From Roseateles sp. XES5 (GTDB lineage: Bacteria; Pseudomonadota; Alphaproteobacteria; Rhizobiales; Rhizobiaceae), in the NCBI RefSeq assembly GCF_020535545.1, contig NZ_CP084755.1:1-64000 (forward strand): a stretch of DNA of 64,000 nucleotides, given 5' to 3'. Positions within the stretch are counted from its first letter, which is position 1. Every line of letters begins with the position of its first letter. Position numbers and translations under genes: made by a program. Positions 13,215 through 54,755 of this stretch are shown piece by piece. The notes under the pieces are model-generated. The model was not told the DNA's origin and ran no database searches. It saw only the letters and a program-made list of their open reading frames with translations.

Positions 13215-13221
13215 TCGATTG

Positions 13222-15292: not shown

Positions 15293-17770
<2,478 letters not shown>

Positions 17771-17816
17771 TTATAGGCTGTCCTATGGGCAGCCCTACTC
17801 AATAGGGAGACAAGAA

Positions 17817-18257: not shown

Positions 18258-18303
18258 CGACCGGCATCCGAATGAAGGTTGTCGGCTCCTCAAAGGAGTC
18301 GCG

Positions 18304-19140: not shown

Positions 19141-19171
19141 TTGACCTTCCCACTGTTGGAAGGCGCAGGAT
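19141..19171 (+). promoter_or_regulatory. CueR-type promoter of the oxidase/ATPase operon
   Basis: TTGACC at 19141 and CAGGAT at 19166 are separated by 19 bp. CTTCC and GGAAG form perfect operator arms around a 7-base centre. This is the most symmetrical of the four copper operators here. Confidence 0.82.
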
Positions 19172-19258
19172 GACCGTACGAGCGGCTGTGTTGACAGAGA
19201 TCAATGTCAGCAGGGCTTGAACGAGTAACGTTCAATGTGGGCGAAGGCGAGTTGAGCA

Positions 19259-19609: not shown

Positions 19610-19682
19610 CGACCTCGTGCCCACGCGCGGCACAATCATCAACAACATGGTCGGCATGCCGACCGAGATCGAGAGAGACACC

Positions 19683-23925: not shown

Positions 23926-24341
23926 TTGACCTCCTTCTCGACCCAGGACGTCAGCTCTTCGACCTCCTTCGTTTGATCGTCGATGATTTTCTGAGCTGCC
24001 GCTTTGGCCTCAGCGTTATCGCCGTGTTTCAGTTCGACCTCAGCCATGCTGATTGCACCCATATGGTGCGCAATCATTCCGCACACGAACGAGACGTCAG
24101 GGTCTTTTTTCATCATTCCCTGCATCATGTTCATGTTCATCATCTTCATGCCGTCCATCGAGTCTTTCTGGTAGTCAGTCATTTCGGGCATGGACATTTC
24201 GTGGCCTTGCATCGTGGTGTCACCGGGTTTGGCCATGTCGGACTTACATTTCTCCGGATACGCCATCTGTGCTGCGGCCGGGAACGAGCCGACTAGGGGT
24301 CTGAGTAGCAACGGAACAGAAAACCTACATAAGGATTTCAC
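23922..24341 (-). CDS. DUF305 Met-rich protein with transposon-derived start
   Basis: A 139-residue frame. From residue 18 it is the body of a secreted DUF305 protein: Met-rich (MKMMNMNMMQGMMKK) with the family signature MIAHHMGAISMAEVEL. The first 17 residues, MKSLCRFSVPLLLRPLV, come from the terminal repeat of the transposon that inserted here. They start at a GTG that overlaps the tnpA stop as GTGA, and they resemble a basic, hydrophobic leader. The native 5' end (MKILLKSSVAAILLATVV) lies at 28637-28690. DUF305 proteins are thought to bind periplasmic copper. Whether the chimera is expressed and exported is an open question. Confidence 0.75.
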   Translation of the reverse strand: MKSLCRFSVPLLLRPLVGSFPAAAQMAYPEKCKSDMAKPGDTTMQGHEMSMPEMTDYQKDSMDGMKMMNMNMMQGMMKKDPDVSFVCGMIAHHMGAISMAEVELKHGDNAEAKAAAQKIIDDQTKEVEELTSWVEKEVK

Positions 24342-27300
24342 GGCTCGTCATCGGGGTCGGCGGTTTTCGGATCGCGTAGAGGCCTGAGTTCGCCTCGGGC
24401 CACGAAATCGGGGAGCGTGAAGGCGTATCGACCAAGCATGTTGACGTGACGGAAGCCGAGCGGCGAGAGACGCGTGACATCCTCCGGCTTGACGTCGTAG
24501 CCTTCAGTCAAGAGCTGGTTGACGGCTGCATCCGTGTAGATCGTGTTCCAGAGCACGACGAGATTGACGACCAGGCCGAGTGCTCCGAGCTGATCTTCCT
24601 GTCCCTCATGATAGCGCTGCCGCAGTTCACCACGTTTTCCATGAAAAATGACGCGGGCGAGCTGGTGGCGACCCTCACCTCGATTGAGCTGGACGAGAAT
24701 ACGGCGCCTGTAGCTTTCATCATCAATGAAGCGCAGGAGGTAGAGCGTCTTGATAAGGCGGCCGAGTTCCTGCAGGGCGCGAGCGAGACGGGTTGGCCGG
24801 TCATTGGTCTGGAGGGTTCGGGTGAGGCCAGCGGCCTGGACGACGCCGAGTTTGAGGGAGCCGGCAAGCCGCAACAGATCGTCCCAATGCTCGATGATCA
24901 GCTTCATGTTGATCCTGTTCGCCGCGAGATCGTCGAGGATGCCGTAGTTGGCTTTTGCATCGGCGCGCCAGAATCTTGCCCCGCCGACATCTGCGATGCG
25001 AGGGCTGAACTGGTATCCGAGCAGATAAAAGATGCCGAAGACGGTGTCGGTATATCCGGCCGTGTCGGTCATGATCTCGGTGGGCTGAAGCTCGGTCTCC
25101 TGTTCCAGCACGACGGCGAGGAGGTTGAGGCTGTCGCGCAGGGTGCCTGGAACGGTCATGGCGTTGAGGCCGGTAAACTGATCTGAAGCGAGATTGTACC
25201 AGGTGATACCGCGCTCCTGCCCAAAATATCGCGGATTGGGGCCGGAATGAATGGTGCGGACCGGCACGACGAACCGCAATCCATCGGCGGACGCCACTTC
25301 ACCGCCGCCCCATTTTCTCGCCAGGGGGATGGCGTTTTGCGCCGCGACCAGAGCGGCGTTTGCGGCGGTCAGCGTCTCGGCGCGCAGGAAGTTCTGCTTG
25401 ACCCAGCTGAGCCGGGAGCGTCGAAGTGCCGGGGTATCGATGCGAACCAGCGGCTCGAATCCGGTATTGGTCGCTTCGGCGACAAGAACGGCGCAGATGC
25501 TGGTTGCGATGTTTTCCGCGCGTGAGCCGCCCTCGCTGGCGTGGGTGAAGAGATCGGCAAAGCCGGTTTTCGCATGCATTTCCATGATCAGTTCGGGCAG
25601 ATCGAGCCGAGGCAGACGCGCATCGATCGCGGCGCGCAGCGCGATGAGGCTAGGCGGTTCCTCGATCTTTTCCAGGCGATCGAGGGACAGGTCCGAGCCT
25701 TCCGAGGTATTGATGATGGTGACGGCCGGGTTCAGCGGGACACGATCGGCGGTTTCCCTATAGGCTCGGTCTAGCCGGCTCGACAAACGCCCGAGTTCTT
25801 CGTCAGCAACGGTGGACACTCCGACGGTGCGGCAGACCGTCGGACGTGCAGCTTCCCATGCTGGACCTGATAGCAGCCCCTTGCGCGGATCGGCATACCG
25901 CAGTGAGTGAACCGGAAAGATGTCGCGCCGGCGAATGGCGCGGCGCAGTTCGTCCAGGATGCAGAGCCGATATCCTGTCAGATCGACAGCGCCATCGGCA
26001 GTCTTGAGTTGGGTCTGCCATGCCTTTGGCGCAAAGGCTGTTGGTGGTGGGCCGGCGCGCTTGCGGCCGGAATGAACCACACGGAGATAATCAATGGCCT
26101 CCAGCAAGGGCCGGCCGGCGGGAGCCGCGCCGAGATCGAGGCCGGCGAGCAGTCCCGGCGTATAGGCAATCTTGCGATTGTGCTTCCTGAGTTCGGTAAA
26201 GTAGGTGTCGTCGTGAGGTTCCGCGAGGGTGCCGACACGCTCGACGGCCGCGTCAAGCGCCTGCCTGTCGATCAGGTCGAAGATTGCGGTGCGGACTGCA
26301 TCGTCGGGCGTTTCGGGATCGAGAATGACGATCGCCGCGTCGCGTAACTTCAGTGCCGCTGCATCCAGGTCTCGCAGCGACCGCAATCTTGCCAGCTTGG
26401 CGGCCGACGACGCCTCCGACACCATCGATGTCGTAACCGCGTCGAACAGATCGATGACATCATCCCCGGCCGATGCTTCGAGTGTTCGAATAAAGGCCAG
26501 CAGGGTTGCAGCGCGCCGGTCGGCCGGCAGACGCGAAACGGCCTGAGCCTTTGCAGCGCTGGCAAACCGCGCCAGCGCCGTGACTTTACCCGGTGGCAGC
26601 CGATCGAGCGACGGCAGGCCGCTTGCGAGGGTGCGAATCTCTTCCAGACGGCCGAGTGCACGGCTGATCTCCCGCCCGCTCTGAATGTACGGTCCATCGC
26701 GCAGCCGGTCGAGCGGGCTTTGCCGACTGCCTTCGGAAACAGCGACCAGGCTATCCAGTCGCGCACGCTGCTCGGGCGTCATCGACTCGATCAGCAATCT
26801 ATGCAGCCGGCTGTTCGCCCGTGTGCGAACCCTTGCCACGGCCCTTTCCAGCACAGACAGGCCCGGCAGCAGGACCTTGGCTTCCAGCAACCATGCGACG
26901 GCCCGGTCGAAGAGAGCCGACGGTCGGTCCGATCCCGTCCAGCACAGGGCGTAAAGAAAGCGGTTGAGACGGAACGCGACACCGAAATCGGTATAGGTTC
27001 GGTAGCCGTAGTGCTGACGAATGCGAGGCGCATGGCGCCAGCGCCCTTCGCTGCGGGCATATTCGGCAATCAACTCTTCGGGCTCGGTGAGCGAAAGCTG
27101 GCGGGCGGTGAAGCGCAGGGCCGGAACAGGTGCCTCTGTGGGGTCTTCCGGAAAGGTGCCGAGTATGCGCAACGATCCGAGCTGGACGGCGACGCCCAGA
27201 CGATTGTGATCGCCGCGATGCAAGGCGACGAACGCACGATCGGCGTCATCGAGGTGGAAATAGCGAGCCAGTTGATCCGGGGTAAGCTCGTCGGGAAAAC

Positions 27301-27346
27301 AGCCATATTCCCGCGCCTGGCTCTCGCTCAGATATCCTACCGGCAC
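24338..27346 (-). CDS. tnpA: Tn3-family transposase TnpA
   Basis: A full-length 1002-residue Tn3-family transposase. The N-terminal DUF4158-type region starts YLSESQAREYGCFPDEL, and the C-terminal DDE domain includes GGEVASADGLRF (first Asp), TEIMTDTAGYTD (second Asp) and the late Glu near LIIEHWDDLL. It binds the 39-bp terminal repeats and carries out replicative transposition. The start lies 6 bp after the tnpR stop. Its TGA overlaps the GTG start of the chimeric DUF305 frame. No frameshift is seen, so the element is probably active. Confidence 0.95.
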   Translation of the reverse strand: MPVGYLSESQAREYGCFPDELTPDQLARYFHLDDADRAFVALHRGDHNRLGVAVQLGSLRILGTFPEDPTEAPVPALRFTARQLSLTEPEELIAEYARSEGRWRHAPRIRQHYGYRTYTDFGVAFRLNRFLYALCWTGSDRPSALFDRAVAWLLEAKVLLPGLSVLERAVARVRTRANSRLHRLLIESMTPEQRARLDSLVAVSEGSRQSPLDRLRDGPYIQSGREISRALGRLEEIRTLASGLPSLDRLPPGKVTALARFASAAKAQAVSRLPADRRAATLLAFIRTLEASAGDDVIDLFDAVTTSMVSEASSAAKLARLRSLRDLDAAALKLRDAAIVILDPETPDDAVRTAIFDLIDRQALDAAVERVGTLAEPHDDTYFTELRKHNRKIAYTPGLLAGLDLGAAPAGRPLLEAIDYLRVVHSGRKRAGPPPTAFAPKAWQTQLKTADGAVDLTGYRLCILDELRRAIRRRDIFPVHSLRYADPRKGLLSGPAWEAARPTVCRTVGVSTVADEELGRLSSRLDRAYRETADRVPLNPAVTIINTSEGSDLSLDRLEKIEEPPSLIALRAAIDARLPRLDLPELIMEMHAKTGFADLFTHASEGGSRAENIATSICAVLVAEATNTGFEPLVRIDTPALRRSRLSWVKQNFLRAETLTAANAALVAAQNAIPLARKWGGGEVASADGLRFVVPVRTIHSGPNPRYFGQERGITWYNLASDQFTGLNAMTVPGTLRDSLNLLAVVLEQETELQPTEIMTDTAGYTDTVFGIFYLLGYQFSPRIADVGGARFWRADAKANYGILDDLAANRINMKLIIEHWDDLLRLAGSLKLGVVQAAGLTRTLQTNDRPTRLARALQELGRLIKTLYLLRFIDDESYRRRILVQLNRGEGRHQLARVIFHGKRGELRQRYHEGQEDQLGALGLVVNLVVLWNTIYTDAAVNQLLTEGYDVKPEDVTRLSPLGFRHVNMLGRYAFTLPDFVARGELRPLRDPKTADPDDEP

Positions 27347-42002: not shown

Positions 42003-44972
42003 ATGGCCTTCCTCGACGCGCAGTCGCGCACCGTTCTGTTCGACCCACCCGATGTTTATGAAGAGGCCCTCGCGCGCTATGCGCTGTCCGCTGAGGACAT
42101 CGCTTTCGCCAAGGCGCATCGCCGATCGCATAATCGTCTGGGTTTTGCCATCCAACTCGCCCTGGTGCGTGATCTCGGTCGTCCGCTCCGCGCTGGGGAA
42201 GTTGCGCCTCAGGCAGTCGTCTCCGTTGTCGCCGACCAGCTGGACATCGACGCTGCGGTGTTCGCGCTCTATGCCCAGCGGGAGGAAACCCGTCGAGAAC
42301 ATACGCGGGAGATTGTCGTCGCACTGGATCTCCGGCCCGTCCGGGCGAGCGATTATCGATCCCTGATCACCGCGGCGGCACGCGAGGCAGCCGCGACCGA
42401 ACAAGGCGAGCCGATCACCAAGGCCGTGATCGAAGCCCTGAAGGAGAGGAAGCTGCTCATTCCTGTGCCGGAACTGCTGATACGTCTGGCGATGGCGGGC
42501 CGGGCGGCGGCGCGACGACAGGCTTATCGCGGCTTGATCCGGGGCATGGAGCAACCGTCCATCGAGGCGCTTGATCAGCTTCTCATCGATCGGTCCGGCG
42601 ATCGGAGCCATCTCGGCTGGATTGCGGAAGCGCCGGAGGGGACGAAACTGAAAAACCTCAAGGGCCTGATTGCCCGGCTTGAGGTTCTGCGTTGGGCGGC
42701 GATTTCCGATGAGCGACGTAAAACGATCCATGCCAACCGCTATGGCATCATCGCCCGGGACGCTCGCATTCTGCATGCCCGTGAGATACGACGCCTGACA
42801 TCCGAGCGCCGCTACGCCACGCTGGCGGCGTTCGTCATCGAGAGGCAGGCGGCAATCACCGACCTTGTGATCGACATGTTCTGCAAACTGATCGGCAGCA
42901 CCCGTCGCAAGGCTGAACTGAGCCGCACAGAACGCCGGCTGCAAGAAGCCGAGATTCTTGATGGGGTGGCGCTCGATCATCTCAAGCTTGGCGAGGCGCT
43001 TCTGGCCGCCCGTGAGAGCAACACCGATCTCGCATCCGCAATTGCAGTCTCACTCGGCTGGGACGGATTGACCGCCAGCATGGCGGCAGCCAGGTCCGTC
43101 GTGCGCCCCGATCGCAGCGACGAATTCGATGAGCTCATAGAGCGGCACAAATCGCTGCGAAAGCTGGGCAGGCTCATGTTCGGCGCGTTCTCTTTCCGGT
43201 CGTTTCGTCCCGATGATCCGGTTTTGAAGGCAGTGGATCATCTGCGTGCGCTCTACAATGGCAGGAAACTACCCGCGCAGGTGCCGTTCGCGTTCATGAC
43301 CCGCAAGTGGCGGCGGCGTGTGCGCTCGGACGGTGTCACCATCGACCTGCGTGCCTGGGAAGTGGCGGTGCTCGTTCATCTGCGGGAGCGCCTGCGGGCC
43401 GGCGACATATGGGTTGAGGGCAGCCGAGCATGGCGCAGTTTCGAGGATTATCTTCTGCCTCGACCGATCTTTGCCCTCATGCGCGCCGAAGGCCGGCTCG
43501 GGCTTGCCATTCCTGACAGCTTTGCCGAATGGCGAGCCGAACGCACCGCCACGCTCGACGCGAAACTCAAAAAGCTGGCAAGGGCGGCGGCCGCCAACGC
43601 CATTCCGCATGCGGCTATTTCCGACAAGGGTTTGTCGGTCTCCCCGATCCGCGAGGAGGAGCGTGACGGGATCGTCGCGCTCAGCCGGCGTCTTTACATC
43701 CTCGTTCCCCGGATCAGGATCACCAGCCTGCTTGCCGAGGTCCACAGCTGGACCAGGTTCCTTGACAGCTTCACACACTATCGCACCGGCGAGACGGCGA
43801 ACGACGAGCCGGCGCTGATGGCCGCTATCCTTGCCGACGCCACCAACGCCGGTGCTGAACGCATGGCGGAAAGCTCACGCGGCGTCACGATCCACCAGAT
43901 GATGCTGATGGTAGATAGGCATCTGCGCTCGGAAACCTATGCCACGGCGACCGCCGTGCTGGTCGATGCGCAGCAGGCTCATCCCTTCGCCGCAGTCTGG
44001 GGCGACGGTCATATCTCCTCCTCGGACGGGCAGTTCTTTCCGGCCGGCGGGCGCGGTGAAGCCAGCCTCGAATACAATGCAAAATACGGCAAACGGCCAG
44101 GTGCCTCGATCTATGGCTTTCTTTCCAATCGTTTCGCCTCCTTCTTCTCCCGGATGATCCAGGCGTCCGAGAGCGAAGCGCCCTACGTGCTCGACGGCCT
44201 CCTTCACAACGAAAGCTCCGTCGAAATCCATGAGCATGCAACCGATACCGCCGGCGCGACCGAAACCACATTCGCTATGTTCCATGGCTTCGGCTACAGG
44301 CTCATTCCTCGTATCCGCAATCTCGGCAATCGCAGGCTCTTCGTCATCGATCCCGACCCGGCGTACGAGCCGCTCGGGGCGCTGATCTCGGGAGCCGTCA
44401 ACATGGATGTCATCGAGCAGCACTGGGATGAGGTTTTGCGGCTGAAGGCATCGATTGGCGCAGGCCTCGTGCCGCCGTCCGTCATCCTCAAGAAGCTTGC
44501 CGCATCGCCTCGACAAAATCGGCTCAATCAGGCGCTACGCGAAATGGGCCGAATTGAACGCTCGATCTTCATCTGCGACTGGTTGCTCGACACCAAGCTC
44601 CGGCGCAGGTCGCATGCCATCCTCAACAAGGGTGAAAGCCGTCACGCCCTTGCCAGGGCGGTCTTCCTCCACCAGCTTGGCGAGCTGCGCAACCGCGTGG
44701 CGGAAACCATGGCCTATCGGGCGTCAGGTCTTAACCTCGTCGTCAACGCCATTATCCTGTGGAACACCGTCTATCTCAGCCGCGCTGTCGATTATGTCCG
44801 CACCCAGGGCATCGATATTCCCGCCGAACTGCTCTCCCAGGTCGCACCACTTCCCTGGGCTCATATCGCACTCACCGGCGACTATCTCTGGAACGAAATT
44901 GACCGACCCCTCGAACGCTTCAGGCCGATCCGCGCTAACCGTTTCAATCCAAACAACTTTGCTTTCCCTTAG
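42003..44972 (+). CDS. tnpA: Transposase of the inner transposon
   Basis: An intact 989-residue Tn3-family transposase. The N-terminal DNA-binding region has RRSHNRLGFAIQLALVRDLG and QREETRREHTREI; the catalytic core has WGDGHISSSDGQFF (Asp), the HATDTAGATETTF segment (Asp) and the later Glu in VIEQHWDEVLR. Its 3' end runs five bases into the right terminal repeat. It is of normal length without frameshifts, so the element is likely active and could also act on related ends. Confidence 0.95.
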   Translation: MAFLDAQSRTVLFDPPDVYEEALARYALSAEDIAFAKAHRRSHNRLGFAIQLALVRDLGRPLRAGEVAPQAVVSVVADQLDIDAAVFALYAQREETRREHTREIVVALDLRPVRASDYRSLITAAAREAAATEQGEPITKAVIEALKERKLLIPVPELLIRLAMAGRAAARRQAYRGLIRGMEQPSIEALDQLLIDRSGDRSHLGWIAEAPEGTKLKNLKGLIARLEVLRWAAISDERRKTIHANRYGIIARDARILHAREIRRLTSERRYATLAAFVIERQAAITDLVIDMFCKLIGSTRRKAELSRTERRLQEAEILDGVALDHLKLGEALLAARESNTDLASAIAVSLGWDGLTASMAAARSVVRPDRSDEFDELIERHKSLRKLGRLMFGAFSFRSFRPDDPVLKAVDHLRALYNGRKLPAQVPFAFMTRKWRRRVRSDGVTIDLRAWEVAVLVHLRERLRAGDIWVEGSRAWRSFEDYLLPRPIFALMRAEGRLGLAIPDSFAEWRAERTATLDAKLKKLARAAAANAIPHAAISDKGLSVSPIREEERDGIVALSRRLYILVPRIRITSLLAEVHSWTRFLDSFTHYRTGETANDEPALMAAILADATNAGAERMAESSRGVTIHQMMLMVDRHLRSETYATATAVLVDAQQAHPFAAVWGDGHISSSDGQFFPAGGRGEASLEYNAKYGKRPGASIYGFLSNRFASFFSRMIQASESEAPYVLDGLLHNESSVEIHEHATDTAGATETTFAMFHGFGYRLIPRIRNLGNRRLFVIDPDPAYEPLGALISGAVNMDVIEQHWDEVLRLKASIGAGLVPPSVILKKLAASPRQNRLNQALREMGRIERSIFICDWLLDTKLRRRSHAILNKGESRHALARAVFLHQLGELRNRVAETMAYRASGLNLVVNAIILWNTVYLSRAVDYVRTQGIDIPAELLSQVAPLPWAHIALTGDYLWNEIDRPLERFRPIRANRFNPNNFAFP

Positions 44973-45010
44973 CGGGTATTATTGCAGAAATGCCCACGGA
45001 GCCCCCATCA

Positions 45011-46076
45011 GATCGGATGGATGCGCATGTTCCATGCCCGCACGGAAACCTATCGCGCAGCGCAGGCATGTGTGACCGACGCCCATGCGCGTCATCCCCA
45101 CGCCCAGCTCTGGGGAACAGGGACGACCGCATCATCTGATGGTCAGTTCTTCCGGGCCAGTGATCGTGCCGCCAAACGCGGTGATATCAACCTGCATTAT
45201 GGCAGCGAGCCAGGCTCGAAATTTTACAGCCACCTTTCCGATCAGTACGGCTATTTCAGCATTCTGCCGATCAGCCCGACCGAGAGCGAGGCAGCCTATG
45301 TTCTCGACGGCCTGTTCGACCACGACACCATCCTGGAGATCGAGGAGCACTTTACCGATACCGGAGGTGCGAGCGATCATGTATTTGCCCTCTTCACTCT
45401 GATCGGAAAGCGTTTTGCGCCTCGGCTGCGCAATCTCAAGGACCGGAAGTTCCATACTTTCGAAAAGGCCGACTCATATCCAGCACTGGCCAACCATATC
45501 GGCGCGCCGATCAATACCGCCCTCATTCTGGAACACTGGGATGACCTTCTCCATCTGGCGGCATCAATCACGACACGCTCTGTTGCGCCCTCAATGATCC
45601 TCAAAAAGCTGGCGGCATCCTCGAAACCGAGCCAGTTGGCGAAAGCCCTGCGTGAGCTCGGGCGCATCGAGCGATCCCTGTTTATGATCGAATGGTATTC
45701 CAACCCGGCACTTCGCCGGCGATGTCAAGCCGGTCTTAACAAAGGAGAATCCGCCCACAAGCTCAAGCGGGCCGTTTTCTTCCATGAGCGCGGCGAAATC
45801 CGCGACCGATCGTTCGAAAGTCAGGCATTCCGTGCCTCGGGCCTCAACCTTGTCGTCAGCGCCATCGTCCACTGGAATACCGTTTATCTCAGCCGTGCCG
45901 TAGCCCATCTGCGTCAAAGTGGTCGAACTATCCCCGACATATTGCTCAAGCATGTCTCGCCACTCAGCTGGGAGCACATAAATCTCACCGGCATCTATTC
46001 CTGGGACACCGAGCAGCAGATGCCCGAAGGCTTCAGGCCATTGCGACTTCCTGGAAGAATCCTCCGCGCTGCATGA
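45011..46076 (+). pseudogene. tnpA: tnpA of the mercury transposon, 3' part
   Basis: The C-terminal half of the outer transposase, in frame with the 5' part at 40664-41196 once the inner transposon is removed. It keeps the DDE elements WGTGTTASSDGQFF, EEHFTDTGGASDHVF and LILEHWDDLLHL, and the end runs LTGIYSWDTEQQMPEGF. Separated from its N-terminus it cannot be a working transposase. Confidence 0.88.
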
Positions 46077-46467: not shown

Positions 46468-49041
46468 CTACCGTTCGGCCCCGTCGCGGTCGTTGCCGCG
46501 CTGGCGTTCCTGTTCCGCCTGCCGAAGGATCTGCTGACGCTGCTCGTCCTGGGCAGCCCTCGACGCGCCAGCCTGTTCTCGCGCCGCGCGGGAAGCGCGA
46601 CCCGCGGCAATGGCCTGCTGCTGGGCCGCGATTGCGGGATCGACCGTTGCCGGCGCTGGCCGATCCTGAGTGCGCGCCTCGTCGACGCGCGCCGGCGGCG
46701 GCGTGCCCCCTGCCCCCGCTGTGTCGTTGACCGAGCGCATCTGCTGCATCTGGATGTCACGACGCTGCTCTTCGAACAGCGCGGAGATTTCCTTGCGCAT
46801 CTCCTCGACGGCCTGTCGCTCAGCGCTGCTATCGACCATCGTCTCCAGGCGGTCCATGGATTTGTTCGCCCGTGAGACGCGCTCGTCGAACTGTTCCAAC
46901 GATAGGGGCATGGCCTTTTCCTTCTGTTGTTGAATGGTTGCGATCAGGGTCTTGAATTCCGCCAAAGGCTCGTCCGGCGGCGCAGCGGACTGCCCCGCCA
47001 AGGCATCGAATTTCTTCTGCAGCCAAGGAGACGGCGCACCATGCTTGACGGAGCCGGCCGCCTCGACGATGACGGCGGCGCGCAATCCATGCGCCAGCAA
47101 CCGCGCCTGGAAATCTCGGGCAACGGACCGCATCTCGGAACCGGGGCCAAACTCGTCGTTCTGCTTGGCTAGCTCGCGCTCGATCTTGCTGACGCTCGCG
47201 GTCGTGGGCGCCAGAACCCGGACGGACTTCCCCTCGGCGGAAATCAACTTGGCCTCGACGCCGACGGCCCCCTCGATAATGACAGCTACCGTCTCGCGTT
47301 CCATGGTCTGTTCGACGTCCAACCGGAGCAGGACGAAGCCGCTGGCCCGAGCAGCATGCGGTGCTTGAGCGGTTACCGCAGCTACGAACCGGTCGGCCGC
47401 CGCAATCACGGAAGGTTCCGCGCCGGCCCGCTTCAGGGCGCTCGCGGTCGCCTGCCATTTCGGGGCGAGCGCCAGGTTTCCATTGGAGAGAGACGCGCGA
47501 TCGACGACGCCGGCACGCTTGCGCTCGACGCGATTGGTGACAGCCGGCGTCTTGAGATAGCGAGGATCTTGTCTGCCCCGTTCATATGCGCCGGCCTGCG
47601 CTTGGCTATAGGGCCGCGTGGCCGCCACATCCGCACGCCGGGTGGCGACCATAGCGATGCCCTGCTCCCGCGCCTTCGTCGCAAACCGCTCGCGCCATTC
47701 GTACAGCTCGGGCTTGGTCAGCCGCAGCGCCTTGCCGACATCGTCGCGCGCCGAGATCATCACATGGACGTGGACGTGACCGGTATCGGGATGATGGGCG
47801 GTGATCCAACGATGGCCGGCGACCTGCTCGCTAAGAAAATCCCGAACAGCGCGGGTCATCGCCTCCGGATCGGTCCCGGCCCGTGCCGAGAAGATGACAT
47901 GGAACGCGTTGCGCGGCTCAACGGTGCGAATGTGCGAGGACCAGGCGCGCCAGATGCCATCCGCCTTTTCCTTGACGCTGGAACCACGCTTGACCGGATC
48001 GCCTTCGCTGGTGGTGATGGACTTCTCGGTGCGCAGGAACTTTTCGAGGAAGTAGCGGCCGGATTTCTCCGAAACGGCTGCACCGAGAATGCGGACCTCG
48101 GCCGACACGCCGGCGTCGGCCAGCCGGCGCGCGAAATCGGACTCTGTATTTTCCAAGGCGCGCGCCGGCCATTCGCCTTTCTCGCGTGCCTTTAACGCGC
48201 CGGCGATTTTCTTCGCCGGCAGATTGGTCACCGCATAGATCGAGACCCTGCCGTCCGGATGTCGCGAATAGAGGAAGGGCTTCGACCCGAAGGCGGCGTT
48301 CAGGGCATCGTGGAGCGTGTCGTCGTCGACTTCATCGGAAAGGGTGATGGAAAAGGTCGCGAGCGCGTTGACCGCATAGGCGTCGCGAAAATCCGCGCCC
48401 CACTCCGCGAGCGCGGCGGCGCGCTCTTCGCGGCTGGTGATGGCAAGGCCATCCTGATCGTAAACCGGGATATCCACCTTGCCCTTCTCGCCGTTTTCGT
48501 TCTCGACTTCCCGTGTGCCGAGATAGTTCATCAGGCCAGCAGCCGACGCCCGGCTCGATACGGTCGACGTCACCTTGATCACCACCGGCTGCGCACCGGC
48601 GGCGATCGCCGCGCGGCTTGCCGTCTCCGCTTTGGACCTGTCCTTCGCTGCGCCCCGCGCGCTCAGAGGACGGGCGACACTGGGCGCGGCTGCAAAGGAC
48701 GCCCCGCCCCCTCCCCCGCCGGCCGACTTCTTCAGCTCGTCATCATCCCCCCTCTGGTCGCCGACACCCAAAGCTCCGACCAGCGCAATGACACCCTTTT
48801 GCGATGACAGCGGCGCTTGCAGGATCGACGCGATTGTCGGCTCACTTCTCGACACGGCGCCAGGGTGCGCCTTGCTCGCGATGCCCTTGGCTACAAATCG
48901 GCGCGGCGGCTCCCCGCCCGACAGAGCGACCCCGATCACGCGCCGGCGACGCAGCTCCTCTTCCTCGTCGATCAACGAGGTGGCGCGGCGGGCGGAAAAA
49001 GCCTCGATCTCACCAAGCAGTCCGGACCAGTCATGCGCCAC
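46468..49041 (-). CDS. Mobilisation relaxase, MOBP/VirD2-like
   Basis: An 857-residue relaxase. After a variable N-terminal 150 residues the nuclease domain begins; motif I is in SAAGLMNYLGTRE with a probable catalytic Tyr173, and the metal-binding His motif III is HHPDTGHVHVHVMISARD near residue 420. The C-terminal third is Ala/Gln/Arg-rich and helical. It should nick the plasmid at oriT and pilot the strand. Its start overlaps the end of mobC by 11 bases. The nick site proposed at 49515/49516 matches the VirD2/TraI type. Confidence 0.85.
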   Translation of the reverse strand: MAHDWSGLLGEIEAFSARRATSLIDEEEELRRRRVIGVALSGGEPPRRFVAKGIASKAHPGAVSRSEPTIASILQAPLSSQKGVIALVGALGVGDQRGDDDELKKSAGGGGGGASFAAAPSVARPLSARGAAKDRSKAETASRAAIAAGAQPVVIKVTSTVSSRASAAGLMNYLGTREVENENGEKGKVDIPVYDQDGLAITSREERAAALAEWGADFRDAYAVNALATFSITLSDEVDDDTLHDALNAAFGSKPFLYSRHPDGRVSIYAVTNLPAKKIAGALKAREKGEWPARALENTESDFARRLADAGVSAEVRILGAAVSEKSGRYFLEKFLRTEKSITTSEGDPVKRGSSVKEKADGIWRAWSSHIRTVEPRNAFHVIFSARAGTDPEAMTRAVRDFLSEQVAGHRWITAHHPDTGHVHVHVMISARDDVGKALRLTKPELYEWRERFATKAREQGIAMVATRRADVAATRPYSQAQAGAYERGRQDPRYLKTPAVTNRVERKRAGVVDRASLSNGNLALAPKWQATASALKRAGAEPSVIAAADRFVAAVTAQAPHAARASGFVLLRLDVEQTMERETVAVIIEGAVGVEAKLISAEGKSVRVLAPTTASVSKIERELAKQNDEFGPGSEMRSVARDFQARLLAHGLRAAVIVEAAGSVKHGAPSPWLQKKFDALAGQSAAPPDEPLAEFKTLIATIQQQKEKAMPLSLEQFDERVSRANKSMDRLETMVDSSAERQAVEEMRKEISALFEEQRRDIQMQQMRSVNDTAGAGGTPPPARVDEARTQDRPAPATVDPAIAAQQQAIAAGRASRAAREQAGASRAAQDEQRQQILRQAEQERQRGNDRDGAER

Positions 49042-49399
49042 GGCCAGCTCCCCTCCGCTCCTTGCGGCTGATCCGCAGCATCAGATCGACGTCGGCGCGC
49101 AGCCGGAACACGCCATCGAGGAGGGTGCGCAGGGCCGCGTCGAGATGCGGTTCGTAACCGACGCGACCCTCGTTCATCGCCCGGACCGCTTGGTTGAGGT
49201 TGATGCCGATGCGCCGCAGTTCCTCGTTCGTCCCGCGCAGGGCGTCGGCCTCGGCTGGCCCGACCGGGAGCGGAAGGCCCGCCTGTTCGCGAAACAGCAG
49301 CCGGATGACGTCGCTGGCGGTGCGCCCTTCCTCGCACAGCGCGGCGAGCGCATCGCGCTCCTCTGGCTGCAGTCGGACCCTCAACACCTCGCTCCGCAT
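49031..49399 (-). CDS. mobC: MobC-like relaxosome accessory protein
   Basis: A 122-residue basic protein. It starts MRSEVLRVRLQPEERDAL, an RHH-like DNA-binding start, and has the MobC signature RRIGINLNQAVRAMNEG. MobC proteins bind oriT and help the relaxase open the nick site. ATG at 49399 has GGAAGGAAAAG directly upstream; a TTG-initiated frame from 49501 would include the oriT repeat and is unlikely. The operon mobC-relaxase is divergent from the virC1-like gene. Confidence 0.82.
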   Translation of the reverse strand: MRSEVLRVRLQPEERDALAALCEEGRTASDVIRLLFREQAGLPLPVGPAEADALRGTNEELRRIGINLNQAVRAMNEGRVGYEPHLDAALRTLLDGVFRLRADVDLMLRISRKERRGAGRGA

Positions 49400-49487
49400 C
49401 TTTTCCTTCCCGCTTGCCAGGTTGCCGGAGGCGACCCGGAGCGCCAGAGGCGCGAACCACTGCCCTGCCGGAGGCGGGGCGACGTCG

Positions 49488-49518
49488 AGTTTGTACCACA
49501 AACTTGACTATCCTGCCA
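49488..49518 (+). other. oriT: Candidate oriT: inverted repeat plus border-like nick site
   Basis: AGTTTGT-ACC-ACAAACT (49488-49504) is an inverted repeat, followed four bases later by TATCCTGCCA (49509-49518). That decamer is the reverse complement of TGGCAGGATA, the core of T-DNA borders, and it matches the IncP nick region. The expected nick is between G49515 and C49516 on the plus strand, so the mob genes would enter last. It lies between divergent mobC and virC1-like genes. Confidence 0.75.
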
Positions 49519-49526
49519 CATAAAAC

Positions 49527-49538
49527 TAAACTATATTT
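49527..49538. repeat. 12-bp inverted repeat, mobC side
   Basis: TAAACTATATTT here is the exact reverse complement of AAATATAGTTTA at 49849-49860, just upstream of the virC1-like gene. One copy lies near each of the two divergent promoters, so it may be a shared operator. Confidence 0.5.
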
Positions 49539-49625
49539 TATCCACCAAAACAGCTTCAAACGGACAAGCGCTCTCGATCCCCTGCCTGGACGAAGCTTCC
49601 CCGCCAATACGCTTCATATCAACAA

Positions 49626-49816
49626 TTGCCCGTTGTTCGTGCTCTGGTTAACAGCGGCATCGCGGTTAATTGGCAATTACCCATTAACAACGGTTAGTTA
49701 CAAAAGGGAAATTGCTCATAATCAACGGGCAATTGATGATTGCCCGTTCACCGTTGCCCGTTGTCAGCGGGCAGTCATCAATCGTCAATCGTCAATGGGC
49801 AATGAACAACGGGCAA
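49626..49816. repeat. Cluster of TTGCCCGTT repeats in the oriT region
   Basis: TTGCCCGTT or its complement occurs at 49626, within the palindrome AACGGGCAAT-N5-ATTGCCCGTT (49724-49748), at 49754 and at 49808, with degenerate copies (ATGGGCAAT, AGCGGGCA) between. They look like multiple binding sites for one protein, perhaps the VirC-like proteins or MobC. Confidence 0.7.
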
Positions 49817-49848
49817 CGATTTCGTTGCGGAGAGAGGACGAAGGAATT

Positions 49849-49860
49849 AAATATAGTTTA
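49849..49860. repeat. 12-bp inverted repeat, virC1 side
   Basis: AAATATAGTTTA mirrors 49527-49538. It also overlaps a local dyad TATAGT-TTACC-ACTATA that ends just before the ribosome site AAGGAG of the virC1-like gene. Confidence 0.5.
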
Positions 49861-49878
49861 CCACTATAAGGAGCCACA

Positions 49879-50562
49879 ATGATCGTCACCATCGCCAACC
49901 CGAAAGGCGGAACCGGGAAAACCACGCTTGTCCGGGCGTTGTCAGGAACGGCCGCCCATGCTGGCAACGACGTGTTTCTGATCGACGCAGACAGCCGCGC
50001 CAACACCATGCGCTGGGTCACGATGTCGAAACAGATGAACGTCTGGCCGGACCGGCTGGAGGCGGTAAGCTGCCTCGACCCGAACCGGATCTACAAGATG
50101 GCGCTGGAGCGCCAATTCGAAGGAAAGATCGTCTTCATCGATATCGAGGGAACCACGAACGAAAACCTGTTCGCCGGTCTCTATTGTGCCGACATCGTTC
50201 TGATCCCGCTACAAACCACCCAGGATGATGTGGTCGCCGGAATGCAGCTTGCACTGAACCATATTCCGGTGGTCGAGGAAGACCAGAAACGCAAGCTGCC
50301 GGCGATGATCGTCATCAACCAGCATGACCTTGTCACCGGCCGGGCCAAGGCCCACGAGCCGCTGCGCGAAATCCTGCGGGAGAGCGGTGTCGCCCTTGCG
50401 TCGCAGACGATCGCCCGGCGCGCCTCCTATCAGTCGATCGGCGCCGCCGGCACGCTCCAGACCGCCGCGAAATCCGACCCGAAGGCAATCGCCGAGATGG
50501 AAACGCTACTCGGCGAGCTGCTCACCCTCTACAGGTCGACGGCGAAGGAGGCTCTGCTATGA
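49879..50562 (+). CDS. VirC1-like ParA-family ATPase
   Basis: A 227-residue ParA/MinD-family ATPase. The deviant Walker A is KGGTGKTT at residues 9-16, followed by LIDADSRANTMRW and IVFIDIEGTTNEN. The size and order of motifs match VirC1, which gathers relaxosomes at the cell pole by binding next to T-DNA borders. The setting agrees: it is divergent from mobC-relaxase across a candidate oriT and overlaps an RHH-protein gene. It lacks a ParB partner and is distinct from the replicon's RepA. AAGGAG precedes the ATG. Confidence 0.8.
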   Translation: MIVTIANPKGGTGKTTLVRALSGTAAHAGNDVFLIDADSRANTMRWVTMSKQMNVWPDRLEAVSCLDPNRIYKMALERQFEGKIVFIDIEGTTNENLFAGLYCADIVLIPLQTTQDDVVAGMQLALNHIPVVEEDQKRKLPAMIVINQHDLVTGRAKAHEPLREILRESGVALASQTIARRASYQSIGAAGTLQTAAKSDPKAIAEMETLLGELLTLYRSTAKEALL

Positions 50563-50939
50563 GCGAAGGATCGGACAGCAAGAATCTCGTCCTCGGGCTG
50601 ATCTCGACCGGCCGCGACCGGCCATCCGTCCGCGAAAAGCCCATGGCCTCTCCTCCGCCGGCGAAAACCGACGATGATGGTGGCGCATCGCCAATAGCGG
50701 CGGCCGGCCGGACCCAGTTCCGCGACCTGGTCGCTAAGGGCGAAAGCCGCGATCCCATCGCCGGTAAGCGTTTCCGGGACACCGAGAAGGTCACGACCGG
50801 TATCCATATCCGCGTCGAGGTCCACAAGAAGCTGAAGATCCTCGCCGCTATCGAGCGGCGCAAGTTTAACAGCTACATCGAGGAAGCCATCGATGACTAT
50901 CTGCTGAAGATTGCCGATCGGATCCCCGACATTTCTTGA
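50559..50939 (+). CDS. VirC2-like ribbon-helix-helix protein
   Basis: A 126-residue protein. The first 80 residues are Pro/Ala/Asp-rich and probably flexible. The last 45 form a ribbon-helix-helix-like domain: TTGIHIRVEVHKKLKILAAI then NSYIEEAIDDYLLK. Its ATG overlaps the virC1-like stop as ATGA. By analogy with VirC2 it may bind the repeats in the oriT region. It converges with repC, whose stop is 20 bp away. Confidence 0.7.
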   Translation: MSEGSDSKNLVLGLISTGRDRPSVREKPMASPPPAKTDDDGGASPIAAAGRTQFRDLVAKGESRDPIAGKRFRDTEKVTTGIHIRVEVHKKLKILAAIERRKFNSYIEEAIDDYLLKIADRIPDIS

Positions 50940-50959: not shown

Positions 50960-52174
50960 TCATGCGCTTCGCTTCTCGCCTTCGCCATTCGCCCTGAGCG
51001 CGGCCATCAGCATCGGCCCAAGGCCGAATTCACCGCGCGCCGACTTGCGGGTGAGATCGCGCAGGTAGCCGCCGGGGGAAGTGATGTGCTCGGCACGCTC
51101 CAGGATGCAGGCGACGGCAACCGCAGCATTTTCAGGCCCCATCACCTCGCACGCCTCCTGATAGGCCGACGGGCTGACGCCCAGCATCGACCGGACCAAG
51201 ACCGCGGCCGACATTAGGTCGCGCCAGGTTTCAACCCGCCCGCCCGCCGCGTAATCGGCAATCTGCGGGCACGCTCTCAGCACCAGCGATAACGGGAATG
51301 CCTTCAGCGGCTCGGCGATCTGTTTCGGTTTCTTGCTCGGCTTCTCGCCCTGCTCTTTTTCTGAGCGAGGTTCAAGTTCATGGAAGGATTCGGGTTTTGA
51401 ATTCTGTATGTGACGACCGTTATGGTGGTCATAGACGTCCATTTTTTCTGCTTTTACCTGAATTTCCAAGCGGTTGATGATTTCCTCGCGCAAAAACTCC
51501 ATTTCTTCGAGCACCGCATCGACGTCTTCGCGGTGAGGCGAGCGCGGGAGACGCGCCAGGAGGCCGATGAACATAGCTTCGATCGTCGCCCAATCACCAT
51601 CAGCGCCCTCTTCCATGGCCGCGGAGATGAGCTTGCGGACATCGCGCCGGCAAAGCGACAACGCTTCTTTGGCGCGCTTGAACTGAAGGCGCTCTGCGGC
51701 GACCTGCTGCGCAAGGCTGGCCAACTCGCTCGCACGGGCAAGCAGGGGCGCCAGGCTGAAGCCGAATGCGGCCTCGATCTCCCCTCCCCTGCCCCGATGC
51801 GCATAGCGCTTGCCGTTCGGGCTATCGCGACGTTCGATCAAACCGGCGTCTACCAGCGCCGCGAGGTGTCGGCGCAAGGTCGTGCCGGCAATGCCGTGGG
51901 CGCGCATGGACAACTGGCTGTTTGATGGGAACACGACAAGGCCGCCGCTTTCATCGCAAAGCTCGTCGCTTGGATAGAAGCTCAGCAGCGCCTGCAGAAC
52001 AGTGATTGAACGATCCTGAAGGCCGAAAACGTCCTTCGTCTCGCCGATGTCGTTGAAGACCTTCCATTTGTTGACCGCCTCGCTCGGGCGGCGATCAGCC
52101 GTTTCGAGCTGACCTCTCACCAAGGCAAGCGTCATCGGCCGCCCGTGGGGCGTTGCTACACGTCCTATCTGCAT
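50960..52174 (-). CDS. repC: RepC replication initiator
   Basis: A 404-residue RepC of the repABC family. The N-terminal winged-helix region includes WKVFNDIGETKDVFGLQDRSI and NSQLSMRAHGIAGTTLRRHL; the C-terminal domain ends SPGGYLRDLTRKSARGEFGLG. RepC binds an origin that in repABC plasmids lies within repC itself; here bases 51370-51460 are conspicuously AT-richer and are a candidate. It is separated from repB by 199 bp that encode the counter-transcribed RNA. Confidence 0.95.
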   Translation of the reverse strand: MQIGRVATPHGRPMTLALVRGQLETADRRPSEAVNKWKVFNDIGETKDVFGLQDRSITVLQALLSFYPSDELCDESGGLVVFPSNSQLSMRAHGIAGTTLRRHLAALVDAGLIERRDSPNGKRYAHRGRGGEIEAAFGFSLAPLLARASELASLAQQVAAERLQFKRAKEALSLCRRDVRKLISAAMEEGADGDWATIEAMFIGLLARLPRSPHREDVDAVLEEMEFLREEIINRLEIQVKAEKMDVYDHHNGRHIQNSKPESFHELEPRSEKEQGEKPSKKPKQIAEPLKAFPLSLVLRACPQIADYAAGGRVETWRDLMSAAVLVRSMLGVSPSAYQEACEVMGPENAAVAVACILERAEHITSPGGYLRDLTRKSARGEFGLGPMLMAALRANGEGEKRSA

Positions 52175-52268
52175 TTTCCTTCACCTCTCAAAAGGCAAAA
52201 GAAATCCACTCACCAAAACGGCGCCAAAGACTCTTGACTGTGATTCGTGGAAATGCGATTCTCTGGGT

Positions 52269-52324
52269 GCTTAGATCAGAGGAAGACTTCCACGGCGGTA
52301 ACGCTTTGGGGGTCTTTTTCTTTT
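52269..52324 (+). ncRNA. Counter-transcribed incompatibility RNA of repABC
   Basis: On the strand opposite repABC, in the repB-repC gap, TTGACT (52234) and GATTCT (52257) with 17-bp spacing form a promoter. AAGACTTCC (52283) and GGGGGTCTT (52308) form a hairpin followed by TTTCTTTT. The predicted RNA of about 55 bases matches the small antisense RNA that limits repC expression and determines incompatibility. Confidence 0.75.
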
Positions 52325-52373
52325 GCGGCGGTCTCTCCTTCCGACCAATTGATTTTCTCAGCCGAAACCCCGC

Positions 52374-53378
52374 TTACTGCGAGGGATCGGCCGCGTTGAA
52401 CTCACGCATCAGCTCCGGCATTCGTTCTGCCAGCCACCGCGCAAAGACCTGCTCCTTTTTCGGGATCGTCACGATCGTTCCCGACAAGGTAGATTTCATG
52501 CGGCCGAAAACACGGCCGCCAATGACGAAATCAAGGATTTCTTCCTGTACGTGTTCTTCCGCCTGAGACACCGGCGAGGTGGTCGCCCGCATTGCCAGGG
52601 AAATACGCCCAGCACCGTCTGCCTGTTGAAACTCGGCCGTGGGGACAATTTTTCGGACGGCGTCAATCTTGCTCGCGTCCTTCAGCAGTTCTGCAAACGC
52701 GGTCCATTTCGGGCGGCCCGCTGCCTGAGCGCGGCCTATTGCAAAGATGATGTCTTCCGGAATGGCGGACGTTACGCGGAACATTTGTGAGACCGCGACT
52801 TCGGATAGCCCCATGATCGAAGCGATTTCACGCTGAGAAATACCGCTGCCTTTCAGCTGCACGGCCCACATAGCTTTCTCGATCCAGCTGAGATCCTCTC
52901 GTGGACCATTTTCGAGCGTTTGCTCCTCGATCAACTGGCGATCGGTCAGGTCACGCACATAGGCCTTGATCTTGATGGTTTCAGGACGATCAGCCTCCGC
53001 CATGATCGCCAAAATGGCATCGCGCCTACGGCGCCCATAAGCAAGCTGATAGTGATCGCTCTTGGTTGGATGAGGCCGGACAAGGACCGGGATTCTCTGG
53101 CCTTCCGTGGCTATTGAGAACTTCAAGGCACCGAATTTTTCATCGGCTTCTGCATCGTACTCAAACCTGTCCTTGAAGGGTGAAGCATCTACTTTCGAGG
53201 GATCGAGAGAGACAATGACGTCTTCGCTGAGGTGGGAAAGCGCCCTTCCTACGTTGGAAATGACGGGCGACGAGTGGCGACGAGTAAGGCCAATCCTGTC
53301 CGTCCCATCACTGGCAGGAGCTGCATCACCGCGATTCTCGGCATCCGCCGCCATCCGTTGGAGTATGCTCTTCTTCAT
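52374..53378 (-). CDS. repB: RepB plasmid partitioning protein
   Basis: A 334-residue ParB-family protein of the repABC type. It has the conserved stretch IPVLVRPHPTKSDHYQLAYG followed by RRRRDA, the ENGPREDLSWIEKA box, and a helix-turn-helix (ISQREIASIMGLSEVAVSQM). It binds the parS palindromes upstream of repA and works with RepA to segregate the plasmid. Its ATG overlaps the repA stop by 4 bases. Confidence 0.95.
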   Translation of the reverse strand: MKKSILQRMAADAENRGDAAPASDGTDRIGLTRRHSSPVISNVGRALSHLSEDVIVSLDPSKVDASPFKDRFEYDAEADEKFGALKFSIATEGQRIPVLVRPHPTKSDHYQLAYGRRRRDAILAIMAEADRPETIKIKAYVRDLTDRQLIEEQTLENGPREDLSWIEKAMWAVQLKGSGISQREIASIMGLSEVAVSQMFRVTSAIPEDIIFAIGRAQAAGRPKWTAFAELLKDASKIDAVRKIVPTAEFQQADGAGRISLAMRATTSPVSQAEEHVQEEILDFVIGGRVFGRMKSTLSGTIVTIPKKEQVFARWLAERMPELMREFNAADPSQ

Positions 53379-54589
53379 GCGCTACGCCCCCAAACCTTGT
53401 GAACGAGTTCAAGAATTTCGAAATTAACGCGGTCGGCGCTCTCGATAGCCCGCTTGAGCGCTTCTCGGCCGACCTCGCCTGCTTCAAGCTCGTAGAGGGT
53501 CTTCTTGGCGACTGCCGCACCGGCGATGGCGGTCGATTCCAAGGCATCGGCAACCAGAACGTCGCCTCCAAAGAGACGGCGCATAACTCCCGACATATAT
53601 TTCTGCGGCCCATCGTTCGGGTTTACGCGGGTCAATAGGAAACGGAAGAAGTCGTGCTCGAAACGGGCACCGAACTGCGCCAAGGTTTCACTGAGATCGG
53701 AGATCATGATGAGAAACTGATTGCACGACGCAACATCCAGCATGGCGGGATGGACCGTGATGATCAGGGACGTAGCTGCATAAAGTGCTGCAAGCGTGGA
53801 GTAGCCGAGCGACGGGGGCGTATCGAGAATCACGATGTCGTATCGATCCTCTACGCCAGCGATCGCATTGTTGAGCCGTTCAAAGAACAGTCCGAGATCA
53901 TCACGATTTTTCTGCGAGAGGTAGGAAGGGGTGTCGAACTCAAAGTCCATGAGTTCCAGATTTCCAGGGACGAGATCGACCCCAGGAAAATACGTGGTCC
54001 GGATAACCTCTGTCAGCGGCCGTCGGTCGTTATCATACCGGATCGCAGCATAGGCCGTTTCATTCTCCCCGAGATCGAATTCCGGCTGGAGCCCGAACAA
54101 TGCCGTCATTGACGCTTGGGGGTCCAGGTCAATGCAAAGAACGCGATAGCCTTGGAGGCCAAGAAAATGGGCAAGGTGGATGGAAGTCGTCGTCTTGGAA
54201 CTGCCGCCCTTGAAATTCGCTGTCGCGATTATTTGCAGTTTCTCCCCCGCACGCCGATGGGGCAGCAGAGTTTGGGCATCGTCCGGACGAAACTCCGCGA
54301 GAAATGCGCGCAACTCTCTCACCTGTTCAACGGTATAGGTGCGTCGATTGTTGTCGGCCCGCTCAGGTACTGGCCCCTTCCCCTCGATGGTGAGCTGCCG
54401 CAACGTGCTTTCAGGTACTTTGAGCAGTCGCACGAGGTCGGTCGTCGAGAAGGTGCGCGCAAACGTCTTCTTCGCGGTCGGCGGATAGAAACCTTCGCGC
54501 ATCTCATGCAGTTCCGCGGAAAGCTTCGACGTGTAATTGCCGATCTTCGATGCCGTATCGGTGACGCTTCGAGAAGCCGGTTGAAGCAT
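53375..54589 (-). CDS. repA: RepA plasmid partitioning ATPase
   Basis: A 404-residue ParA-family ATPase of the repABC type. The N-terminal region has FYPPTAKKTFARTFSTTDL with a helix-turn-helix (LKVPESTLRQL). The Walker A is NFKGGSSKTT, with LCIDLDPQASMTALFG and IVILDTPPSLGYS following. It represses its own operon and drives partitioning. ATG at 54589 has AAGAGGAAGAA directly upstream; an ATG at 54637 would add 16 residues without a ribosome site. Confidence 0.95.
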   Translation of the reverse strand: MLQPASRSVTDTASKIGNYTSKLSAELHEMREGFYPPTAKKTFARTFSTTDLVRLLKVPESTLRQLTIEGKGPVPERADNNRRTYTVEQVRELRAFLAEFRPDDAQTLLPHRRAGEKLQIIATANFKGGSSKTTTSIHLAHFLGLQGYRVLCIDLDPQASMTALFGLQPEFDLGENETAYAAIRYDNDRRPLTEVIRTTYFPGVDLVPGNLELMDFEFDTPSYLSQKNRDDLGLFFERLNNAIAGVEDRYDIVILDTPPSLGYSTLAALYAATSLIITVHPAMLDVASCNQFLIMISDLSETLAQFGARFEHDFFRFLLTRVNPNDGPQKYMSGVMRRLFGGDVLVADALESTAIAGAAVAKKTLYELEAGEVGREALKRAIESADRVNFEILELVHKVWGRSA

Positions 54590-54755
54590 TTCTTCCTCTT
54601 GACGGTTTTGGACGCGATACGCGATCATTTCCGTCATGGATGCCAGACAGAATCCGATTCTTCAAGGCGTTTTTCGTTAACGAAAGGCTAACGCAGGCGG
54701 CGTGCGGAACCACACATATCACTGATATGGAATTCAAGTGATCAGAAATTAGCGA

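Follow-up and report, generated by a model that had tools for sequence, protein, structure and literature searches.

A predicted MOBP transfer origin with a repeat array between divergent mobC-relaxase and ParA operons on a repABC plasmid of Roseateles sp. XES5

Why do conjugation modules keep a ParA-type ATPase beside the origin of transfer (oriT), and does a word resembling a border of transferred DNA (T-DNA) at such a place betray kinship with the gene transfer of Agrobacterium? A small system for asking the first question, and the occasion for the second, lies at 49.0-50.9 kb of the 64,000-nucleotide stretch analysed here (the window), which opens contig C4 (NZ_CP084755.1; 102,922 bases in all) of Roseateles sp. 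XES5. There a mobC-relaxase operon and a divergent operon for a ParA ATPase and a small protein flank an intergenic region that holds an inverted repeat, a nick-site-like word and an array of short repeats. A previous sequence-only reading of this DNA had seen a compact mobilisation module sharing its logic with T-DNA transfer and perhaps related to the source of the VirC proteins. The first half of that picture, a compact MOBP-type transfer module with oriT between the two operons, was supported; the second was not. In our judgement, the locus is probably the DNA-processing (Dtr) module of a plasmid of the repABC type, itself probably self-transmissible, and its ATPase-small-protein pair would link the relaxosome to the transfer channel.

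By its sequence, the segment 49483..49518 (+ strand), an inverted repeat followed by the nick region TATCCTGCCA, is very likely a MOBP transfer origin. The repeat has 11-nt arms (49484-49494 and 49498-49508) with one mismatch and a 3-nt loop; the repeat noticed earlier at 49488-49504 is real and forms the perfect inner part of this longer one. As had also been reported, TATCCTGCCA follows at 49509-49518 on the + strand, and the window contains it once, against 0.06 copies expected; of 100 shuffled sequences, 6 contained it. Within it, TATCCTGC (49509-49516) begins directly after the repeat end at 49508 and agrees with the MOBP consensus (C/T)ATCCTG(C/T) following an inverted repeat, which places the predicted nick between 49515 and 49516 of the + strand (PMC3772185). 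When the intergenic region was aligned with those of 14 plasmid loci (L002-L015), 34 of the 36 columns in 49483-49518 proved invariant, compared with 103 of 452 in the rest of the alignment. No stretch of 36 columns away from the core had more than 27 invariant ones. The 15 rows are related to one another and include the near-copies L008/L009 and L014/L015.

To look farther afield, we compared 15 chosen stretches beside mobC, relaxase or ParA genes, namely the window, Mesorhizobium L016, pLM19O2 (L017), pAtS4a (L018), L092, L077, L081, L084, L088, L131, L132, L090, L072, L073 and L087; the intergenic stretches between true VirC1 and VirD2 genes (L069-L071) were left out. ATCCTG, oriented as in the window, was found in all 15 and was followed by CC in 14. 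The exception is L087, where the ParA gene is not divergent from the relaxase gene and the word may be there by chance; pAtS4a carries an additional ATCCTG on the opposite strand. An inverted repeat (arms of at least 7 nt, at most one mismatch, at most 5 nt before the word) precedes ATCCTG in 11 of the stretches and a weaker one in L092 and L073; in L072 and L087 the word stands too near the edge for scoring, a perfect 8-nt repeat being visible in L072. The repeat sequences vary between groups while ATCCTG is constant. Because the repeats change and the word stays, as in MOBP origins, the T-DNA-border likeness of TATCCTGCCA is that of the general MOBP nick word: ATCCTG is required by VirD2 and by RP4 TraI alike, and the repeat before the consensus is the more variable part (PMC3772185). 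The special tie to T-DNA that had been read from the 10-nt word was therefore rejected, since RP4 and tfs4 both contain TATCCTGC, and the MOBP consensus is this very word (PMC3772185). A T-DNA-border-like word is by itself no sign of kinship with Agrobacterium gene transfer. A T-DNA border has a word that goes beyond the MOBP core, TGGCAGGATATAT; at the corresponding place the window reads TGGCAGGATAG, and the longer border word ATATATCCTGCC is absent from the window.

The connection of the core with its neighbours was followed in 19 contigs obtained by scanning species genomes with the exact core pattern. Sameness of the core among them holds by construction, because that pattern found them; the neighbouring genes are still a test. 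All 19 have mobC beside the core, and 18 the relaxase, the exception being L136, whose sequence goes no more than about 370 nt past mobC. In 16 contigs, an ATPase ortholog is situated 339-397 nt after the start of the core pattern; L142 and L148 end too early, and L145 offers no more than a 26% match at a greater distance. The small gene is found at the core in 14 contigs, the remaining five being L145 and four that are cut short. Identity to the window's ATPase amounts to 90.6-98.7% in 14 contigs and 76.7% in two, and the relaxase matches range from 54.6 to 91.4%. Accession matching told the same from the ATPase side, with the relaxase present about 0.8 kb away in 23 of 23 records that have an ATPase of at least 80% identity. 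From the relaxase side, four of 27 records with a relaxase of at least 60% identity (CP139721, CP015747, OZ000537 and OZ012604) lack an ATPase at the 80% level. The window shows the parA-mobC-relaxase synteny by which rhizobial type IV Dtr regions are recognised, and L010, L011 and L145 have no adjacent ATPase ortholog.

Several neighbouring arrangements were seen along the way. L011 (7045-7767) has the oriT core, the array and an ATPase-like ATG context without an annotated ParA. A gene for an IS110 transposase begins at 7767, and the ATPase gene is possibly disrupted there. On pLM19O2 (L017, 2246-7684), a gene with an RHH (ribbon-helix-helix)-like match (40% over 50 aa) adjoins mobC and the oriT-like word; between it and the ATPase, 3.4 kb farther along, come a gene annotated as a RelE/ParE-type toxin and one for a regulator. 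In Nitratireductor (H100), a relaxase stands without annotated mobC or ParA beside it.

The genes on the left of the core suit a MOBP origin. The relaxase gene (46468..49041, - strand) encodes 857 aa and matches PF03432 at 44.9 bits (cut-off 24.6) over residues 364-461, while its score against NCBIfam MobP1, 57.7 bits, is below the cut-off of 200. Motif III, HHPDTGHVHVHVM, is found at about residues 416-428 and Tyr 173 about 240 residues from the motif; Y173, H417, H422, H424 and H426 are invariant in eight relaxase rows. Domain, three-histidine motif and upstream tyrosine of a MOBP relaxase are thus all present, and Y173 would be the catalytic residue. An AlphaFold model of the protein (pTM, predicted template modelling score, 0.39) had no PDB match at E 0.001; 4ht4, a conjugative relaxase structure, ranked 32nd with E 0.099. 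The gene for the relaxosome accessory protein MobC (49031..49402, - strand, 123 aa; PF05713 at 23.8 bits, cut-off 23.2) overlaps that of the relaxase; mobC and a MOBP-like relaxase had been rightly called on this side.

Modules of this kind are already in print. The Dtr region of pSmeLPU88b consists of parA-like, mobC and mobZ genes (PMC10194956, PMC13274422), an arrangement named class IVb (PMC13274422), and the systems of pT173b and pT173c of Ensifer canadensis have been described as resembling type IVb most closely, with the gene organisation of pAtS4a and pSmed03 and 62% identity between their relaxases (PMC10306167). The proteins of pT173b (printed pT137b) were elsewhere placed outside both type IV subgroups (PMC13274422). 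In our set, the relaxases of L015 (pT173b) and L007 (pT173c) are 62% identical to each other and both fall in the window's clade, the window relaxase being 61.0% identical to the former and 77.6% to the latter; judging from plasmid and identity, and with locus tags in two styles, these are presumably the genes of that description (PMC10306167). The branch to which the module belongs has therefore been noted, and its oriT and array are not described in the literature consulted. With type IVb (pSmeLPU88b, pAtS4a, pSmed03) the window shares the nick word and the order relaxase-mobC-(oriT)-parA-small protein seen in pAtS4a and its kin. It differs in that its relaxase shares no more than 28% identity with the pAtS4a relaxase in 428 aligned columns and lacks the extra residues which the IVb rows have between the histidines of motif III, and in that its ATPase forms a separate clade. 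The relaxase tree resolved the clades IVb (98/94), VirD2 (96/99) and ICE (integrative and conjugative elements; 100/100) and left the window rows unplaced (45/0); the IVb clade consists of six rows, the unnamed ones labelled by likeness to pAtS4a, and the window lies outside it, so that relaxase grouping does not assign the module to type IVb (MobZ).

Is the ATPase, then, a VirC1? The gene (49879..50562, + strand) encodes a ParA/MinD-type protein of 227 aa with the Walker A motif KGGTGKTT at its N-terminus, and the remark that it is VirC1-sized is correct, the Pfam VirC1 profile having 231 positions. The window protein search gave 36.3 bits against this profile, above the loose cut-off of 24. 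In the search of 121 family genomes, the ATPase reached 35.9 bits against 429.6, 429.6 and 403 for the proteins counted here as true VirC1 and 263.4 and 248.8 for VirC1-like ATPases, and four other ParA proteins of its own genome surpassed it (74.9, 72.7, 65.0 and 62.2 bits). The VirC1 equivalog PRK13849 gave 35.1 bits with a cut-off of 313. Models built from tree groups, which differ in depth, scored the window ATPase at 139.7 bits (mixed others), 80.1 (partition), 75.4 (IVb), 63.3 (ICE) and 48.0 (VirC1), the VirC1 model being the lowest of the five. On these model scores VirC1 orthology of the ATPase was rejected; a special tie to VirC is not supported on the ATPase side.

The phylogeny was less decisive. 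In a first tree of 83 rows, from which the window RepA and a 564-aa frame had been excluded beforehand, the window grouped with Mesorhizobium and pLM19O2 (100/96), the IVb ATPases formed a clade (100/99), VirC1 and two of the three VirC1-like proteins formed another (100/99), and the window, IVb and VirC1 groups were not joined (27/67). A second tree, after 16 long-branched or near-duplicate rows had been dropped, gave 50/12 for window plus VirC1 and 81/75 for window, IVb and VirC1 together; the latter value reflects the trimmed set, because those 16 rows were missing, and four alternative unions were not rejected (approximately unbiased test, p-AU 0.233-0.412). The comparison with VirC1 by phylogeny, proposed as a check in the sequence-only reading, thus neither joins nor separates the groups with support, and the model scores lean towards unrelated plasmid ParA proteins. 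The ATPase itself is narrowly distributed: 73 of 199 genomes drawn from the order match it at E <=1e-6, but with at most 33% identity outside the window's genome among the matches listed. For the ParA of Sinorhizobium meliloti pSymB (H83), the fetched 12.6 kb contain no gene annotated as mob.

The partner gene (50559..50939, + strand, 126 aa) overlaps the ATPase gene by 4 nt. In 13 rows of this small protein, KNLVLGLIST near the N-terminus is invariant, residue 77 onward is largely invariant and the linker between them is variable. Its C-terminus (about residues 73-118) is a probable RHH DNA-binding domain: it matched the PHROGs Arc-like repressor family (E 1.6e-4), and a profile of 13 rows matched PDB 2kel (E 6.5e-4). 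The earlier RHH assignment thus finds support in these profiles and none in Pfam, where no RHH match was obtained, nor in the AlphaFold model, for which no PDB match at E 0.001 was returned. Comparison with four VirC2 or VirC2-like rows gave no match (hhalign probability 0.7%), and VirC2 homology was rejected; there was likewise no match to the window's own MobC. The small protein of type IVb modules gave a weak match, suggestive at most (hhalign probability 50%, E 1.7e-4).

Could the module nevertheless be a close relative or even an ancestor of VirC1/VirC2 and T-DNA transfer? The Ti system does share with it the nick word and a ParA-type ATPase whose gene lies next to that of a partner, the two pointing away from a MOBP relaxase operon; VirC1 and VirD2-type relaxase genes are divergent in L069, L070 and L071. 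The reading frames of virC1 and virC2 overlap by 4 nt in L069 and L070, as the window's pair does, while in L071 there is no overlap, the second frame beginning 2 nt past the first, so the likeness in overlap that had been pointed out holds for two of these loci. TGGCAGGATA is common to the module and to T-DNA borders, and one tree sets window, IVb and VirC1 on one side (81/75, not starred). These likenesses are outweighed by the VirC1 scores, by the lack of a VirC2 match, by the first tree, in which the groups did not join, and by the sharing of the nick word among MOBP systems (PMC3772185). Moreover, ATPase and partner look like distant rather than close relatives of the Ti proteins, and the window's oriT lies within the intergenic region without the longer border word. 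We therefore regard such a relationship as very improbable.

A different picture is offered by three other loci. ATATATCCTGCC occurs in the 1,622,897 bases fetched (overlaps counted) at two places only, each counted twice, in L072 and L161, between a VirC1-like ATPase and a VirD2-like relaxase; a third locus of this type, L073, has TATATCCTGCC. In these loci (L072 8902-8913, L161 6545-6556 and L073 8818-9161), VirC1-like ATPases (248.8-264.4 bits) face VirD2-like relaxases across a border-like nick region, and a coupling-protein-like frame stands behind the relaxase in L072 and L073. Their sequences make these systems better candidates than the window for kin of T-DNA transfer. The tfs4 island of Helicobacter pylori, set beside the window by description, resembles it in a MOBP nick word after an inverted repeat and in a distant VirC1-like ATPase, which binds the relaxase (PMC3772185); it differs in being a genomic island with other partner genes.

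Between the core and the ATPase gene lies the array (49625..49817), seven sites with at most two mismatches to ATTGCCCGTTG in both orientations (49625+, 49723-, 49739+, 49753+, 49765-, 49793- and 49807-). The region 49560-49840 contains seven such sites against a shuffle mean of 0.14, with 24 across the whole window; because the motif was chosen from this same region, the window's own excess is biased. The 14 loci examined, related as they are, all have 3-9 sites (shuffle means 0.10-0.23). In 17 of the 19 contigs, 3-10 sites fall within 330 nt after the core; the other two, with only 101 and 55 nt there, have none. In the flanks of these contigs, taken up to 3 kb, 0-2 sites were counted 5' and 0-4 sites 3'. 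The array is bracketed by two partly conserved AT-rich sites, TAAACTATATTTTAT (49527..49541) and its inverted copy ATTAAATATAGTTTA (49846..49860; 93% complementary), possibly parts of a second operator or of a promoter.

It may be asked whether the array is nothing but the operator of the parA-small-protein operon, serving autorepression and having no part in transfer or positioning. Its position upstream of parA and the Arc-like repressor profiles of the small protein would suit this. The array, however, spans about 190 nt with 3-10 sites, and it is kept at oriT in L010 (nine sites) and L145 (five sites), neither of which has an adjacent ATPase ortholog; an operator and nothing more is in our opinion an unlikely description.

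In the scenario we favour, MobC would bind the inverted repeat and the relaxase would cut the + strand at TATCCTG/CCA; given a cut on this strand, the ParA-small-protein genes would therefore enter the recipient first, as is expected from the family. The small protein may bind the array between the nick and parA, and the ATPase may act on the resulting complex so as to bring the relaxosome to the VirB channel and coupling protein encoded by this replicon. Positioning is the likeliest role of the ATPase by analogy with VirC1, R388 StbB and RP4 TraL. VirC1 promotes relaxosome assembly and docking (PMC4949242); StbB helps to place plasmids at the pole, and StbB-like genes, RP4 TraL included, occur in the leading region of MOBP plasmids (PMC3098194). 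Furthermore, transfer of NAH7 is increased by its partition-related proteins, of which one binds in the oriT region (PMC12421886). R388 stbABC and RP4 TraK-TraL likewise encode a DNA-binding protein and a ParA-like ATPase in an operon adjoining oriT; in R388, StbA binds repeats, and StbB is required for transfer when StbA is present (PMC3098194). Compared by description, the window differs in its reversed order, the ATPase coming first, and in having no third gene that could be recognised.

The main competitor to this positioning role is that the pair and the array constitute an accessory type Ib partition system like ParF-ParG, which would stabilise the plasmid and be a mere neighbour of an oriT and relaxase that work without it. 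That type is marked by a small ParA opening with the Walker A motif and by repeats ahead of its gene, both seen here; the small partner would fit as well if its C-terminus is an RHH domain, for which the profiles speak and the AlphaFold model does not. The best matches of the ATPase by sequence among solved structures are ParA 5u1g and ParF 4dzz. On the other hand, the replicon already has its own RepA and RepB, the pair accompanies the relaxase in every one of the 23 records mentioned above, and the array remains at oriT where the ATPase ortholog is missing. The 12.5 kb fetched for pT173c, moreover, show the module without adjacent repABC, and the pair can thus travel without replicon genes. 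We regard accessory partition as possible, though on balance doubtful.

A number of observations nevertheless weigh against the positioning role or the transfer module as we describe it. The ATPase fits the NCBIfam ParA_partition model NF041546 better than VirC1 (97.4 versus 35.1 bits; NF041546 cut-off 180). In 11 of the 14 plasmid loci L002-L015, repC directly adjoins the pair. A partition role would account for this as well, and the adjacency speaks for neither positioning nor partition alone. L010 and L145 retain oriT and array without an ATPase ortholog, so that the ATPase may work in trans or not be needed. The groupings of ATPases and relaxases agree for IVb, VirD2/VirC1 and ICE except in L126, where a VirD2-clade relaxase is found with an ATPase that falls outside the VirC1 clade; in pLM19O2, an ATPase of the window's clade goes with a relaxase weakly nearer to IVb (84/39). 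Finally, the AlphaFold model of the small protein (pTM 0.32) lacks the RHH fold, residues 75-121 forming one helix, confidently modelled (block means of 88-97 at 81-120).

A bolder version of the positioning role may be put forward, speculative and rather unlikely as it stands. Nick site and small-protein array would form one composite locus, an oriT with its own centromere that is moved to the channel by a dedicated ParA; a single ParA linked to oriT on Rhizobiales plasmids would then be the ancestor of the ATPases of the window, IVb and VirC1, and the nick sites of the VirC systems would have moved away as borders.

As for the literature, the word oriT is missing from the main text of PMC10306167, PMC13274422 and PMC10194956. 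The conserved core and the seven-site array are apparently undescribed in the publications consulted, which omit most subscription journals. A related oriT may be the subject of Giusti 2012 and Ding 2013. An exact, searchable oriT core is now available for this plasmid group of Shinella, Sinorhizobium, Ensifer and Rhizobium.

Its use can be seen from the typing of the 27 plasmid records matched by the module query, two of which cover only 11% and 1% of the query. MOB-suite labels 18 of the 27 non-mobilizable, and at least 80% of the queried module region is present in 14; six of the records fetched contain the full module and are labelled non-mobilizable all the same, so the transfer potential of this plasmid group may be underrated. 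As to the replicon itself, repC, repB and repA (50960..54637, - strand; NCBIfam RepC 534.2, RepB 220.2 and RepA 533.6 bits) adjoin the module without being part of it, and the replicon has its own partition genes. Homologues of VirB2, VirB3, VirB4, VirB6, VirB9, VirB10 and VirB11 and two transglycosylases are encoded at 89.6-101.1 kb of C4, and a coupling protein near its end; VirB5, VirB7 and VirB8 received no assignment among the ten frames tested on C4. By gene content, the replicon is probably a self-transmissible repABC plasmid. The segment 46400-51000 of the window is matched at 100.0% by two Shinella sumterensis plasmids.

Elsewhere in the window, the cargo at 4174-21146 and 7432-10602 resembles genes for copper and heavy-metal handling, with two multicopper oxidases, a P-type ATPase with HMA (heavy-metal-associated) domains and an RND (resistance-nodulation-division) pump. 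Additionally, Tn3-family transposase genes lie at 24338-27346, 42003-44972 and 44982-46076; the second was assigned by sequence inspection alone, and the third is a 364-aa frame that covers positions 57-389 of the 389 in the DDE domain.

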